Origin: a virus
Virus record (IMG/VR): IMGVR_UViG_3300023116_000035
Location: 1 to 64,000 of that record
Direction: 5' to 3' (one strand)
DNA length: 64,000 nucleotides
Both the position numbers and the translations under genes were made by a program. Each line of letters opens with the position of its first letter. Positions within the stretch are counted from its first letter, which is position 1. Under the pieces are notes generated by a model. It did no database searches and was not told the DNA's origin. It saw nothing but the letters and a program-made list of their open reading frames with translations. This document shows, piece by piece, positions 5,835 through 64,000 of this stretch.

Positions 5835-8800
5835 ATGGCTGACGAAAATATTAGGCTGAATGTAGTTGTAGACGGCGAAGAGCAGTTAAAACAGCTGTCA
5901 TCAAGTCTTAAGAATGTTGCATTCAACATGTCCGGCCTTGGTCGCCTGACCAAGAATCTTGATGCTCAACAGAGAGGCTTGAACAAGGCTCTTGGTAATG
6001 CTGGCCGTGGTGCTGTAGAGCAGGCTAAGAATGTACGTCAACTGACTCAGAATCAAACTGCGCTGAGTCAAGAGTTGAAGAGGGTCAATAAAGATCTTCA
6101 GATGCTTCAGAAGAGATTGTCTTCTAAGCAGATTACAAAGAGGCAGTTTGATGTTTTAACCACTGGTCTTAAGCAGACTTCTGTTGCAATGAAGAAAGTC
6201 AAGGCCAGAGCCTTTATTAGTGACCTTAAAGGCATCGGTATGGAACTTAAGCGTCTGGGTAAAGACGCTCAGTTCGTTGGTCGAAGTCTTATTATTGGTT
6301 TGACAACTCCGTTGCTTGTTTTTGCTAATAGAGGTTTGGATGCTTTTAAGGCTTACAATTCCGAGTTGATTAGATTCGCTAAGATTGCGGATAGGAATAT
6401 TGATCAACTTAAGTCCTTTGAGGATGCTGTTTATGATCTTAGCCAGACGTTTGGTTTGAGTCGTGAATTGATTGTCGGTGTCGCTGCTGACTTTGCTGAA
6501 CTCGGTATTTCTTCTGAAGAGAACCTTTTGAAACTGAGTCAGATTACTTCTGAGATGTCCATTTTGGGTTCGATGGATGTCGGGTCTGCTAGAGAGTTGA
6601 CTCAAACAATGTTCTTGGGTATGCAGAGAACGTTGAACCTTACTAGACAGAACATGTCTGCTCAAGAGAAGCAGGCTGCTGCTATTGCTGCAACGAATGC
6701 ACAGTTGATGTTGTTTAACGCTATTGAAAACAACACGGCTATGTCGTTCCGTGATCTTGCTGTTGCTATGCCTGAAGCGCAGGCGGCGGCTACTGCTTTT
6801 GGTTTGACGATGACGCAGACTGCTGGTCTGCTTGCTCCGATGAAGGCGGCTGGTATCGATGTTTCTACTGCTGCTAACGGCTTGAAGGTTTCGTTCCAGA
6901 GACTTATTTCGCCTACTAAGAAGGCTGAACAGACGATGGCTGATCTTGTTGATACGTATGGTGATGCTACTGGTGTTCTTGAAGAAGCATTTGATCAGAT
7001 TCAGGGGCTGGGTGTTGATTCGATTCAGGGTCTTATTGATGCGACTATGGAGTTGCGTGATGTTGCTTCTGACGAAACTGTGTCAAAGTTCTTCACCGAC
7101 CTATTCCAGAAGCGTCAGGCTACCAGAATTCTTACTGCTATTGATGACTTGGTTGCATTCCAGAGAGAACTTAACAATGTTGCTATTGTAGGCAATCAAT
7201 CTCTTGCTGATATTGTTAACTCGGCTTTGGAGGCTGGGAATGCTGCTCACGGTGCAAGTATAACTCTTGTTGATGATTATGCTTCTATTGCTAATATTGC
7301 AAAGATTGCTAATACATCTATTCAAGACATCAAGTCTGGCGCTTTGGAGATTGATGGTCGAATTGTTACGGCGGCAGATAAAGAGGCTGCTATGGCGGTT
7401 CGTCAAGAACTTGGTGACTTGGTTCGTGAACTTAAGGATGCTGAGGGCATTGACCTTATTGATCAGATTTCAAGCCAGGGCGGTAAAGCAATGTTTGTTG
7501 AGTTGCTTGGTGCTTCTAATGCACAGGAACTGGCTCAGAACGAGCTTAACATTGCTTTGAATTCAACCTCTACGGCTATTGATCGTATGAAGAACTCGTT
7601 CAAGAATATTGCTGCTGATTTAATCAGTACGGTTGCTCCGTTGATTGAGAAAGTTTCTAAGGCAGTCAGCGATTTTGCTACAGCGTTTAGAAACTTGTCT
7701 CCTGCCTTTAAGCAAGCAATTCTTGGATTTGGTGCGGTTGTTGCTTCTATTGGTCCGTTGGTGTTTATCTTTGGTCAGTTGAAACTGGCTTCTGGTGTGA
7801 TGCTTAATTCGCTGCTTAGAGTTGTGCCGGGTTTGAAGACTCTTTCTGTCGAGTCTGTTGCTTCTGCTAGCAAGCTTATGTTCTTGAAGAACGGTTTGAC
7901 TAGAACGGGTGACACGATTGTTAACACGAATAGCCGTTTTGCTACTTTAATTGCGACGATTGCTAGTGGCAATGGCCCTATGGCAAAACTTGCTGGTTCG
8001 TTCGGTCGCATGACTGGGATGCTCAATAAGACAAGAACTGCGGCTGGTGATGTTGTAAGTCTTGTTGATGAGATGAAGGCTTCTGCTGATCGTGTGGCAT
8101 CTACAACTTTTGGTGGAACCCCTATGGGGATGGGTGGTGCAGGAAAGAAGACTCCACCGATAAACATAACTGGTGTTTCCGGAACCGCTCCAGTAGCAAC
8201 AGCGGCAACTGCTGCATCTCCTGTATTTAAACCATACAAGGGTATGCCAGCGCCTCCTGTTGTGACTCCCGACGCAAGAGATACTTTTAAAGCTGAAAGA
8301 GATCGAATTAAAGCGGTTTCTAAGCGTTTAGCGATAACTGAAGCAGAGGCTGCTAAATATAGAGTAGATCAGGCAACAGGTCAAGTTAGAAAGAATGGAC
8401 GATTTGTAAGCGCATTTGAAGCAAATGTTCTAAAGCAGGAAGAGGCAAAAAGATCTGCTAGAGAACGAATGGCTTTTGTGAATAGAAAAAAGCAAGCAGA
8501 AGATTTTTACAATCAAACCATTAAGCAAAAGGTTGATCAACAGAATGCTGCAATTAGACAGCAAAATGCAGCAACTGCTAAAGCGGCTGCTGCCGCTGAT
8601 GCGCGTGCTAAGAAGGCTGCAACGAAACAGGCCGATGTTGCAAGGCGTGCTGCTGGTGCTAAGCAAAGGGAGTTAAAAGCGGAGCAGGCTGCGTTTAGGC
8701 AGGCAAGAAGGCAGGCGCTTGATTTTAATAAGAATCAGGCTCAAATTTTTGAAGCAAGAAAGAATTTGACTGCTAAAGCTGTTGTTGAAAACAATAAACT

Positions 8801-41536: not shown

Positions 41537-41766
41537 TCTAACAAAGCGGGAGTCGGCTTCCTAACAGAGCGATCTAACAAACTTGTGTTAGTTTGCTCCG
41601 TTAGGTGGCCTAAACCTCCCGATGAGCCTGATTTTACATTTTGTAAAAAAGTCTCGTTCGTGACACATCGTGGTCAAAACGGAGATAGTGTTTATTTCGT
41701 GGTCGGGACACCGGCCAGATACATAAAGAGTTCACCAATAAGGTGACACAAAACTAGGAGCATTAA
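41537..41766 (+). promoter_or_regulatory. Intergenic control region with GTTAG/CTAAC motifs and hairpin
   Basis: Five GTTAG/CTAAC pentamers lie within 41541-41606. CGGGAG near the start can pair with CTCCCG near 41617. TTTTACA (41632-41638) pairs with TGTAAAA (41642-41648) around a TTT loop. The region leads to the RGR-family gene at 41767, with AGGAG before its ATG. The same pentamer surrounds the two paralogs at 62-64 kb. Confidence 0.55.
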
Positions 41767-42123
41767 ATGTTCAGCATTTCAAAGGTAGACCATTTCCCAG
41801 AGATTACTCGTCAGGGTAGAACTTCTGAAGAACTTCAAGCAATTATTAATGCGCTTGAAGATTCCGCTAGCAAGGGCGAGCGTTTCTGTATTGGTGGTAT
41901 TGATTCAGGCAATGCCTACAATTCGATGCAACAGCGCATTAGAGCACAGGCTAAGAAATTGAATCTCAAAGTCACTATCCGCTACGACAAAGATCAGGCT
42001 AATCTTTACTTCAAGGCTTCTCGTATGGGAGCAGAGAAGGTTTCTACAGAATCAGTTGAGGAACTTGGTGTGACTGCAAATGAGGCTGGTGCAAAGCCTG
42101 CTTCAAAGCGTGCTACTAAGTGA
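41767..42123 (+). CDS. RGR-family small basic protein, member 1
   Basis: 118 residues. Shares with the genes at 62391 and 63260 the order T-R-Q-G-R/R-G-R, S-E-E, Q-A-I, L-E, S-K-G, a central helix ending Q-x-I-R-x-x-A-K and a K-V-x-I-R strand. The basic motif resembles an AT-hook, and the rest looks like a small alpha-beta DNA-binding fold. C-terminus is extended and Lys-rich. A strong terminator follows. I infer a nucleoid-like or regulatory protein acting on GTTAG clusters. Confidence 0.75.
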   Translation: MFSISKVDHFPEITRQGRTSEELQAIINALEDSASKGERFCIGGIDSGNAYNSMQQRIRAQAKKLNLKVTIRYDKDQANLYFKASRMGAEKVSTESVEELGVTANEAGAKPASKRATK

Positions 42124-43087: not shown

Positions 43088-43409
43088 TTTAGAGTTAGTT
43101 TCGTACCTGTTCTAACCTAACGCACCCGCTGGGCCGCTCGCCGCATCTAACCTAACATCGGTGCCGCGACTAACCTAACTTGCCGCCCTGCGCTTTTAGC
43201 CGAACTAACGCTAGCTCATTTCCGCAACTAACAAACCTGGCAATGGCCGAACTAACAGACCAGGCTTTCGACCACCCTTTCTTACGTCGCTAACATTAAA
43301 CTTATCCAAAGGTGCACGAAGCTAAATCCAAACTGATAGTGTAAACACCATGACCCGGCTATTCTCAAAAATAGTTCACCTAACGCAACTAGAGTTAGGT
43401 GCAACTATT
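43088..43409 (+). repeat. GTTAG/CTAAC cluster in the control region before the small-gene array
   Basis: Thirteen copies of GTTAG/CTAAC, including three tandem CTAACCTAAC units (43112, 43147, 43170). At 43094-43116 GTTAG and CTAAC enclose a 13-base loop that nearly matches the loops at 62181 and 62235. At 43370-43409 AATAGTT-CACCTAAC and GTTAGGTG-C-AACTATT form a 15-bp stem with one bulged C. Between the motifs the DNA is notably G+C-rich for this genome. Aside from a possible 40-codon gene at 43350 the region is non-coding. Confidence 0.75.
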
Positions 43410-61575: not shown

Positions 61576-62160
61576 GAATTCTGGCGGGGTGAAAGTATTT
61601 ATATCTATAGATAGATACATAGATATAGATACGTATCTCAGACTAGGATACGCCCCAATTCAGATTCTGAATTAAGAAAATACGTACAGAATAACGTATA
61701 ACGTTCTTGTGTTGTGTGTTCAAATAAAGGTAAATATATTAAAGAAAGAGACTAGTTTTTAGCATTTATCACATAAAATCGTAAAAAACCTTAGGATTAT
61801 TTACTTTTCCTATGTATGGCTGCGTCAATTAGGCGGGTATGGGTTGTGTTCCCTCTATCTATAGAGAGAAACACCTATACCCGCTTTTTTGCGTTATGCC
61901 CTAATTTTCCTAAGGGTTTAAATATAAGTGTGTCTATCCCCTATCTATAGGTGGGCACATAAAGCCGCCATAAAGTTTATTATGATTTGTATCATAAAGT
62001 TCAGGCGGGGATATGGGTGTATCTGTACTACTAGAATAGATAGTAGATATGACCCCGGCATAAAGTTTGCCATAAAGTCTTGGATGAATTTCAGATTTTA
62101 CATTGGTGTAATCTGTTAACTAGATTTTTCTCTATCTTTCATTAGTTAGTTACTAAATTG
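61576..62160. repeat. AT-rich repeat region between convergent operons
   Basis: No gene. Holds palindromes around TATCTATAG (61602-61611, near 61853 and near 61938), AGATACGTATCT (61627-61638), ATTCAG/CTGAAT (61658-61672) and five copies of CATAAAG at about 61958, 61970, 61991, 62058 and 62069. The density of short direct and inverted repeats in AT-rich DNA would suit a replication origin or a protein-binding iteron array; that is inference. Confidence 0.5.
61833..61890 (+). terminator. Intrinsic terminator of the rightward operon
   Basis: GCGGGTATGGGT (61833-61844) pairs with ACCTATACCCGC (61873-61884; one G-U) with an inner CTCTAT/ATAGAG hairpin, followed by six T. It should end transcription of the small-gene array. 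Confidence 0.8.
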
Positions 62161-62170
62161 TTTTGCTTGT

Positions 62171-62257
62171 GTTAGGTTAGTTTTGTTACAGTGCTAACCT
62201 AACGCATTCAACTTGGAGCAGTATGTTAGGTTAGTTTCGAACCAGTGCTAACCTAAC
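62171..62257. repeat. Two adjacent GTTAGGTTAG - 13 bases - CTAACCTAAC elements
   Basis: First copy 62171-62203, second 62225-62257. Both have perfect 10-base arms and 13-base spacers that resemble each other (TTTTGTTACAGTG and TTTCGAACCAGTG). A third, shorter-armed relative lies at 43094-43121. They sit between convergent genes and could act as operators or RNA hairpins. Confidence 0.75.
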
Positions 62258-62275
62258 GAACCAGGCCATCTAACG

Positions 62276-62328
62276 CAAAAGACCCTCACCTAACTTGGAC
62301 CGGTATCTGTCCTTGTTAGATGAGGGTC
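62276..62328 (-). terminator. Terminator of the leftward gene at 62391
   Basis: GACCCTCA (62281-62288) pairs with TGAGGGTC (62321-62328), CTAAC with GTTAG and GGAC with GTCC inside. Read leftward the stem is followed by UUUU. The pentamer is part of the stem. Confidence 0.65.
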
Positions 62329-62358
62329 TAGTGCCATCGGCTGTGTTAGCCGGAGCCT

Positions 62359-62380
62359 CCCACCTGGTTTGTTAGGTGGG
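62359..62380. terminator. Hairpin just after the stop of the leftward gene
   Basis: CCCACCT (62359-62365) pairs with AGGTGGG (62374-62380) around an 8-base loop ending in GTT, so the pentamer spans the loop-stem border. No clear U-tract in the leftward direction. Confidence 0.45.
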
Positions 62381-62390
62381 GTTTGTTAGG

Positions 62391-62666
62391 TCACGCCTTG
62401 CGTGTTACCTGAGGCACACCGGCGGGCGACCAACGGACACCGACCCGGATGTTAGCGACCTTAGCCGCTGACCGGATTTGGTTTCCGTTAGTTACCTGCT
62501 CCGCTTTGGTTGTGGCCGTTAGTTCGGCAATGCGAGCGATGTCCCCAACCTTTAGGTTAGAAAGGACCTGCTCTGCCAGTGCCTGAACTAACTCAGAGGG
62601 CTTGCGACCCCGCTGTGTTACCTCAACCTCAGCTTCGGTGATGACCTCGAATGAGAAGTTCGTCAT
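62391..62666 (-). CDS. RGR-family small basic protein, member 2
   Basis: 91 residues from the ATG at 62666 (a TTG at 62675 adds three codons). Closely similar to the protein at 63260: F-x-F-E-[VL]-I, T-Q-R-G-R-x-P-S-E, G-N-Q-I-R-S-x-A-K-[VI]-A, R-W-S-P-A-G-V-P-Q. The R-G-R-K-P core looks like an AT-hook; the remainder resembles a small DNA-binding alpha-beta fold. Leftward transcription from the repeat region. G+C is higher than in the rest of the phage. Confidence 0.75.
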   Translation of the reverse strand: MTNFSFEVITEAEVEVTQRGRKPSELVQALAEQVLSNLKVGDIARIAELTATTKAEQVTNGNQIRSAAKVANIRVGVRWSPAGVPQVTRKA

Positions 62667-63090
62667 GTTAGACAAACATCCTTTCCCCGGCTTGTTAGCC
62701 GGACTGGAGGTGTACCGACGTTAGGTGGATACCCATTCCCAACGTGCTTCCCTAACTATTTGCGTCTGTTAGGTCCAGACGTACCATGCTGTCTCTCCCC
62801 GGTCTGTTAGATGAGGGTCAACTAACAGGCATGGCAAGGGCCGGAGAGGAAAAATCGAACTCTTTAGTTAGAAAGGAGCGTCGCCCCGGAGGGCTACGCC
62901 TACCTTATCAAGTTAGTTCGGGTAAAGGTAGTGTGTTAGCCATTACTCAGATATTTCTTGTTAGGTAGGCCCTGGCTCTAATGTTAGATGCGTTAAAGTC
63001 CGGACAAATATGTTAGGTTAGATTCGGTCTAGTACTCCCTAACATAAAGCCCTGGCCAGCGTTAGAATATACACTAAAGTTAGATGAGTA

Positions 63091-63161
63091 TGTTAGGTTA
63101 GAATTGCGGGTGTACAAATTCGACGAAGAGCAGTCGGAACACCCGCCGACCTAACCTAACA
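63091..63161. other. Structured inverted-repeat element, copy A
   Basis: H1: TGTTAGGTTAG (63091-63101) with CTAACCTAACA (63151-63161). A 4x4 internal loop. H2: GCGGGTGT (63106-63113) with ACACCCGC (63139-63146). A 5-base bulge (63114-63118). H3: TTCGAC (63119-63124) with GTCGGA (63133-63138), one T-G pair, and an 8-base loop. The same plan recurs at 63710-63781. Confidence 0.75.
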
Positions 63162-63198
63162 GACTTACCTAACCTAACGTATCGACCTAACAAAGAAA

Positions 63199-63220
63199 GA
63201 CCCACCCCGAAGGGTGGGTC
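63199..63220 (-). terminator. Terminator of the leftward gene at 63260
   Basis: GACCCACCC (63199-63207) pairs perfectly with GGGTGGGTC (63212-63220) around CGAA. Read leftward it is followed by UUUCUUUG. It separates the two leftward genes into independent transcripts. Confidence 0.75.
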
Positions 63221-63259
63221 TAACTTAGAGGGAAGGAATGTTAGAAGGGGGGAACTAAC

Positions 63260-63526
63260 TCAGTCCTTCATCTCGATTTGGGGGACACCGGCTGGCGACC
63301 AGCGGATACCAACCTTGCGACCGGCAATCTTTGCACCGGAGCGGATTTGGTTGCCCTTTGTCACTTTGTCAGCATCGTTAGTTGCACGCAACTCTTCGAT
63401 GCGGATGATGGCACCCTTTGACTGTGGTTCCAGAATCATTGCGATGGCCTGTGCCTCTTCTGATGGCTGACGACCACGCTGTGTGGTTTCCACATCGTCT
63501 TCGCTGATAAGTTCGAAGTTGAACAT
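63260..63526 (-). CDS. RGR-family small basic protein, member 3
   Basis: 88 residues; GAGG lies 6 bases before the ATG on the minus strand. Shares M-F-x-F-E-L-I, T-T-Q-R-G-R-Q-P-S-E-E-A-Q-A-I, S-K-G and the G-N-Q-I-R-S-G-A-K block with members 1 and 2. Roughly half of its residues match member 2. Likely binds nucleic acid; the surrounding GTTAG elements are its obvious candidate target. Confidence 0.8.
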   Translation of the reverse strand: MFNFELISEDDVETTQRGRQPSEEAQAIAMILEPQSKGAIIRIEELRATNDADKVTKGNQIRSGAKIAGRKVGIRWSPAGVPQIEMKD

Positions 63527-63709
63527 TGTTTCCTCTCTGCCGAATCAGTTGTTCATCGACTAATAGATACACTAATGTGTGTTAGCAGCTGACACAAGGC
63601 TGGCGGAAAGTTTTTTGTTAGGGGCCTTTTGTTAGAACTGAATACATTTCAGTGTTAGTCCGAATAAAGTCGAACGTTGTGTTAGATATGAGCTAAAGTT
63701 AGGTCTATT

Positions 63710-63781
63710 TGTTAGGTTAGAACCGCTGGTGTTCAACGCCGAAGCATATCTGATCGGCACACCAGCCCAACTAACCTAACA
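63710..63781. other. Structured inverted-repeat element, copy B
   Basis: H1: TGTTAGGTTAG (63710-63720) with CTAACCTAACA (63771-63781). 4x4 internal loop. H2: GCTGGTGT (63725-63732) with ACACCAGC (63759-63766). 5-base bulge (63733-63737). H3: GCCGA (63738-63742) with TCGGC (63754-63758). Compared with copy A, the H2 change is compensated on both strands and H3 is different in sequence but still paired. Confidence 0.75.
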
Positions 63782-63813
63782 GGGCAGAACTAACCTAACA
63801 TGTCTTGACTAAC

Positions 63814-63844
63814 AAAAAACCCGCCCTCTGTGTTAGAAGGCGGG
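63814..63844 (-). terminator. Terminator of the right-edge leftward gene
   Basis: CCCGCC (63820-63825) pairs with GGCGGG (63839-63844). Read leftward six U follow (AAAAAA at 63814-63819 on the plus strand). The loop contains a pentamer. Confidence 0.7.
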
Positions 63845-63868
63845 CTTTATGTTAGGTGTTGGGCTTTG

Positions 63869-64000
63869 TTAGTATTCCCGACAGAACACGACTGCGTAGT
63901 TGTCGTCGTGAGGGTGTCTAACAACTGACCACTTTGCGTAGGAATGAATGTTACGAAGCGCACCATGCATTTTGATTAGTGGTTTTGCACTTCCACCTAA
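63869..64000 (-). CDS. C-terminus of a leftward gene cut by the window edge
   Basis: Minus-strand frame open from the right edge to a TAA at 63869-63871, 43 residues seen, including A-L-R-N-I-H-S-Y-A-K-W-S-V-V and a final V-V-F-C-R-E-Y. A terminator lies just downstream, supporting a real gene. Family unknown. Confidence 0.55.
   Translation of the reverse strand, partial: LGGSAKPLIKMHGALRNIHSYAKWSVVRHPHDDNYAVVFCREY

Follow-up and report, generated by a model that had tools for sequence, protein, structure and literature searches.

The window, a 64,000-base stretch comprising bases 1-64,000 of a 70,302-base virus record, ends inside a block of small genes that is saturated with the five-base word GTTAG/CTAAC, and related uncultured tailed phages carry an equivalent block beside homologs of the same small proteins (62391 and 63260, here called the RGR family), mostly under a different word. 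We propose that the words are half-sites of a dimeric RGR-family protein, which would control its own block; we put the probability of this whole account at about 0.5.

Results

A gene block saturated with a single word

Counted in both orientations, GTTAG/CTAAC occurs 65 times between 62,000 and 64,000, in agreement with the initial annotation, which had reported about 65 copies in the final 1.9 kb. Three things escaped that annotation: the continuation of the block past the window's end, the use of other words by relatives in a similar layout, and a covarying hairpin that is repeated from spacer to spacer. The saturated block spans 62145..66839 of the record, thus overrunning the window by 2.8 kb. 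The interval 62101-66900 (4.8 kb) holds 138 copies (28.8/kb). Shuffling that preserves dinucleotides gave 11.8 +/- 3.2 copies (300 shuffles, maximum 23), and the remainder of the 70.3-kb record has 0.66 per kb. The comparison with shuffled sequence suggested at the outset thus bears the excess out, and simple repeats or chance are ruled out as its source. When the record was divided into 70 non-overlapping 1-kb segments, the five highest word z-scores (11.5-17.7) were those of five block segments; the median of the segment maxima was 4.15, and the sixth highest, 7.9, was a Thr-repeat coding region. Saturation is limited to a single block in this record and in two long relatives.

Within the block, the words lie in spacers, hairpin flanks, terminator loops and several genes, much as the initial annotation had described for spacers, hairpins and one gene. 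Their orientation relative to transcription is uneven in the window block (99 vs 39) and in the relative L018 (52 vs 35), and it is balanced in lineages with palindromic words. Two secondary clusters of 13 and 5 copies, also noted initially, were recovered (Table 1).

An artefact of coding repeats was considered and rejected, as the ACAAC peak at 1-1000 belongs to a Thr-rich protein and is separate from the block. The repetitive Thr-rich protein at 1-1589 of the window, with TTTT runs and ACAAC-rich DNA, is an ordinary coding repeat. CCACC reaches 25-37 per kb in several 1-kb windows of two relatives (G003:41001-49000 and G002:20001-24000), presumably also in coding repeats.

Layout of the block

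The block lies after a long run of plus-strand small genes. Its predicted genes are all small and all encoded by the minus strand. Searches of Pfam, PADLOC and PHROG matched none of them; the genes that did match, for a dCMP deaminase and a DNA methylase, come after the block. In the Streptomyces phage StarPlatinum, a relative by terminase, the terminal repeat region resembles the block in position. The spacers between block genes, often 200-300 bp long, have a recurring order: a terminator, GTTAGGTTAG, a hairpin GCGGGYG..CRCCCGC, CTAACCTAAC, a TTTAGT/TTGAGT-like element, CTTTATG and then the gene, with CTTTATG about 23 nt past the TTTAGT/TTGAGT-like element in many copies. Word spacings of 23-26 bp recur. 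The genes are probably transcribed separately and, we infer, expressed early.

The hairpin is common to all lineages, and it covaries: both sides changed in 9 of 14 pairs, and pairing was kept in 88.9% of cells, a share that was 75.9% for shuffles and no higher than 48% for slid controls. It belongs to no known RNA family by an Rfam search, which matched tRNAs only.

Table 1. Positions of the block and associated features in the window.
Feature	Position	Strand	Basis
Word-saturated block, GTTAG/CTAAC	62145..64000, onward to 66839	.	counts, shuffles
Minor word cluster, 5 copies, just upstream of 41767	41538..41604	.	count
Minor word array, 13 copies, no obvious gene, partly 23-24 bp spacing	43094..43398	.	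count
Divergent third RGR-family member, outside main block	41767..42123	+	
Two tandem inverted repeats GTTAGGTTAG..CTAACCTAAC, downstream block edge	62171..62257	.	sequence
RGR-family small protein, first ATG at 62666	62391..62675	-	
Promoter-like stretch TTTAGTGTATATTC .. CTTTATG, CTAAC words between elements	63039..63103	-	conserved motif; function inferred
Conserved spacer hairpin GCGGGTGT..ACACCCGC, flanks GTTAGGTTAG / CTAACCTAAC	63106..63146	-	sequence, covariation
Intrinsic-terminator-like hairpin after gene 63260	63199..63221	-	read from sequence
RGR-family small protein, 88 aa, AF2 pLDDT 88, order alpha-beta-alpha-beta-beta	63260..63526	-	
Variant hairpin GCTGGTGT..ACACCAGC, same kind as 63106..63146	63725..63766	-	read from sequence
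3' part of block gene 63869-64354 (161 aa, no family match), words in coding sequence	63869..64000	-	

Relatives carry the same kind of block under other words

Across the group the blocks are 3-7 kb long and hold 70-140 word copies each. The initial annotation had proposed a search for the same pentamer beside homologs of 62391 and 63260; the homologs do adjoin word blocks, but the word itself mostly differs and is shared only with L018, a contig found by the window's hairpin DNA pattern, which also has orthologous genes. The word is GTTAG in the window and L018, TTAACGTTAA in L028, TGTAAT in L002-L005, L022 and L024 (weaker in L003 and L004), TGTAAC in L025 and L027, and TGTAAG in L009-L013 and L026, and the block of L029 has a mixture. 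All lineage words have a TTA/TAA core in common; read outward from the site centre they are G-TTA-G, G-TTA-A, G-TTA-C, A-TTA-C and C-TTA-C, that is, one core with two variable flanks. Between L005 and L013, TGTAAT is aligned to TGTAAG at 10 sites, the sixth letter going from T to G with the TGTAA core mostly kept, and when the promoter-like stretches are aligned by eye, TCTAAC of the window stands on the same strand and in the same place as TGTAAT of L002.

The spacing of neighbouring words is fixed and inverted in most relatives. Neighbouring words in the TGTAA phages most often form the pair TGTAA-NN-TTACA, in which TTACA lies at offset 7 from TGTAA; there are 28 such pairs in L002, 11 in L005, 13 in L013 and 14 in L027, and the palindrome TAACGTTA has 42 copies in 5 kb of L028. 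Such spacing is typical of dimeric DNA binding and argues against a motif acting purely at the RNA level. In the window and L018 the commonest relation is a 5-bp tandem, of which GTTAGGTTAG is an example in the window; as copies in the window stand mostly in tandem and not as inverted pairs, a single dimer geometry fails to fit every lineage.

Several other dense words were met in these searches. L015-L017, picked up by the hairpin pattern, were rejected as block relatives, being unrelated phages with short GGTTA/AGTTAG patches; the repeat patches at L016:10160-10410 and L015:3290-3490 consist of GGTTAGG and AGTTAGTTA. A neighbouring unit that looks rich in TTGCA/TGCAA (L005:3000-3760, L024:7370-8130, L013:6780-7400) shows only weak enrichment once local dinucleotide composition is modelled (z about 4 for TGCAA), and we do not claim TGCAA as a word beside these blocks. 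By the word block of L028, at 5960-6320, about 20 TCCACA words lie in 360 bp, with 8 strict matches to the DnaA box TTRTCCACA. At gene 32 of StarPlatinum, which encodes a DUF2637 domain, GTGACA/TGTCAC occurs 22 times in 470 bp (L014:13990-14460) that cover the 3' portion of the gene and the DNA immediately after it, another local word saturation, this one in a known phage. The core site of integron attC is GTTRRRY, which GTTAG fits; we rejected this identity for the word, since neither the density nor the tandem layout fits.

Words inside genes

Over nine blocks, word density is 33.0/kb in spacers, 11.4/kb in ordinary block genes and 3.7/kb in RGR-family genes. Sites within the few genes compared turn over: three window genes with orthologs in L018 contain 10 words, of which just 1 has kept its position there, and gene 65300, with 4 words inside the window block, has an ortholog with 64% amino acid identity at the edge of the L018 block that has none. 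Selection on the words seems, from these few genes and sites, to track the block rather than the gene. The low density in RGR-family genes may reflect protein constraint rather than avoidance.

The RGR family

Among 11 window genes compared, the RGR family is the only one with homologs in every word lineage, the L018 entry consisting of a truncated start, what look like the first codons at the contig end (a start codon and then MELEFDFI, as in the family). The initial annotation held that every cluster touches genes from a single family of small proteins, and this is essentially correct: the main block contains 62391 and 63260, and 41767-42123, the sole family gene near either minor cluster, adjoins the one at 41.54 kb and is about 1 kb from that at 43.1 kb. 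Considering that the relatives all belong to one phage group, the co-occurrence of family and words could be due to common descent.

Homologs of 63260 on the other IMG/VR contigs fetched are 28-42% identical, usually with three per phage at complete loci. The RGR motif is invariant in alignment A3, with QGR in its place in the divergent 41767. From this motif onward the family is mostly basic; the window member 63260 has a net charge of about -1. The predicted structure runs from a helix through a short strand and a long helix to a beta-hairpin; confidence in the fold fell when the model was built from a deeper alignment. Fold matches are weak (best PDB hits E > 0.04), and the top viral hit, a protein from a phage, is uncharacterised. 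Sequence searches of Pfam, PHROG and PDB were empty or weak, with no significant DNA-binding match; cultured phages, plasmids and GTDB genomes gave no homolog beyond one weak chance hit, and there was no match of the family or block to an annotated phage or plasmid.

Discussion

We propose the following account. Each word is very probably, on the sequence patterns described above, a protein-binding half-site, and the protein would be a sequence-specific dimer. The block would be an array of small, separately transcribed genes on one strand, each unit made up of a terminator, the conserved hairpin, a promoter-like stretch and a gene. With sites at about one per 35 bases, bound dimers could cover much of the block. 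As the binder we lean towards the RGR family, the most likely candidate, encoded at the block's downstream end by 62391 and 63260, with a third copy at 41767. Its binding would silence or organise the block: as RGR protein accumulates, it would, as a local and site-specific nucleoid-like protein or repressor, coat and shut down, or otherwise regulate, its own block, while the RGR-family genes themselves are nearly site-free. That the role is one of coating or silencing is a tentative proposal. A change of specificity in the binder would force a concerted change of word at many sites.

A site-specific nucleoid-like protein of the phage, co-evolving with its short site, might further amount to a private addressing system, in which only the phage's own block is coated. 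The word would then be written into the block by substitutions, coding sequence included, and relatives with different words could be insulated from each other's protein. We regard this extension as doubtful.

The sites might instead be decoys that titrate a host regulator or nucleoid protein, with the word tracking the host species. Sites in genes and spacers alike would fit titration, and the L028 array of TCCACA words, which includes 8 strict matches to the DnaA box, shows that these phages can carry dense arrays recognised by a host protein. That array, however, is found in L028 alone in the DNA examined, no host protein of matching specificity has been identified, and host titration does not account for an RGR family that is present in every lineage with nearly word-free genes; we therefore think decoys unlikely. 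We judge it equally unlikely that another transcription factor, from phage or host, uses the words as operators or activator sites at the promoters of the units. The words do stand between the conserved TTTAGT-like and CTTTATG elements ahead of genes, 99/138 have one orientation to transcription, and the 23-26 bp spacings recur. But the 11 words per kb within ordinary block genes, which are hard to explain by promoter control alone, and the absence of words from the ortholog just outside the L018 block would be left unexplained.

It is improbable that the block serves as an origin of replication or for partition, with the words as iteron-like repeats. Such a reading would draw on the dense and inverted repeats, on the gene-free array at 43.1 kb with its partial 23-24 bp spacing and on the DnaA-box array beside the L028 block, yet 3-7 kb with many genes, terminators and hairpins is far larger than iteron origins, the block genes have no initiator-like match, and dense DnaA boxes are found in one lineage only. 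Modification of the word by the adjacent DNA methyltransferase (68553-69599) is the most improbable reading of all: this N6_N4_Mtase gene adjoins the block in the window and L018, but tblastn found a homolog only in L018; the remaining word lineages gave none, even in two long records searched over nearly their full length, so the enzyme is unlikely to be a general cause.

If binding by the RGR family is correct, about 20 related contigs would constitute a natural experiment in which a binder and its 70-140 sites change specificity together. It would mean a form of regulation in which an entire gene block, coding sequence included, carries binding sites, and it would assign a role to a family of uncharacterised phage proteins and provide an addressable block in uncultured phages.

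Comparison with known systems

HIP1 of cyanobacteria is, like the block word, short and in strong excess both within genes and in the spacers between them; HIP1 is genome-wide, whereas the enrichment here is restricted to a single block. DnaA-box clusters such as datA have dense short sites in both orientations, as the block does, but the block words are not DnaA boxes, and L028 alone has a real DnaA-box array. Silencers of the Lsr2/CgpS type, from actinobacteria and their phages, resemble the RGR family in being small proteins with an RGR motif, of the minor-groove type, followed by a helix, and their coating of DNA is a possible mode for this family too (PMC7002338, PMC8612146). An Lsr2 gene lies in the terminal region of StarPlatinum. 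Lsr2, however, prefers AT-rich DNA, whereas here there is a fixed word, and the RGR family's similarity to the Lsr2 profile is not significant (hhalign probability 1%, P 0.055 over 24 columns; no Pfam match).

The stoperators of Cluster A mycobacteriophages are 13-bp asymmetric immunity-repressor sites dispersed through the genome. The words here are instead 5-mers, probably half-sites, in fixed inverted pairs or mostly palindromic in the relatives, and are confined to the block (28.8/kb inside, 0.66/kb outside). The likeness is that both are many repeated sites, of a phage DNA-binding protein in Cluster A (PMC4351075) and of a putative one, the RGR family, here. Stoperators are oriented with transcription; the words favour one orientation in the window block and L018 and are balanced in the palindromic lineages. 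Corndog and the other Cluster O mycobacteriophages have about 34 copies of a 17-bp dyad repeat, genome-wide at mostly conserved positions, denser toward the right end and with about a third within genes (PMC4351075). These too are short symmetric sites of unknown function (PMC4351075), while here 70-140 copies of a lineage-specific 5-7 bp word occupy one block, with low positional conservation in genes. A pentamer-saturated block, or word switching between relatives, was not reported in the open-access literature searched, and the initial annotation's view that the motif is unlike known phage repeat systems is upheld by these comparisons. The nearest described systems are the Cluster O 17-bp repeats and the Cluster A stoperators, both of which have longer sites spread over the genome.
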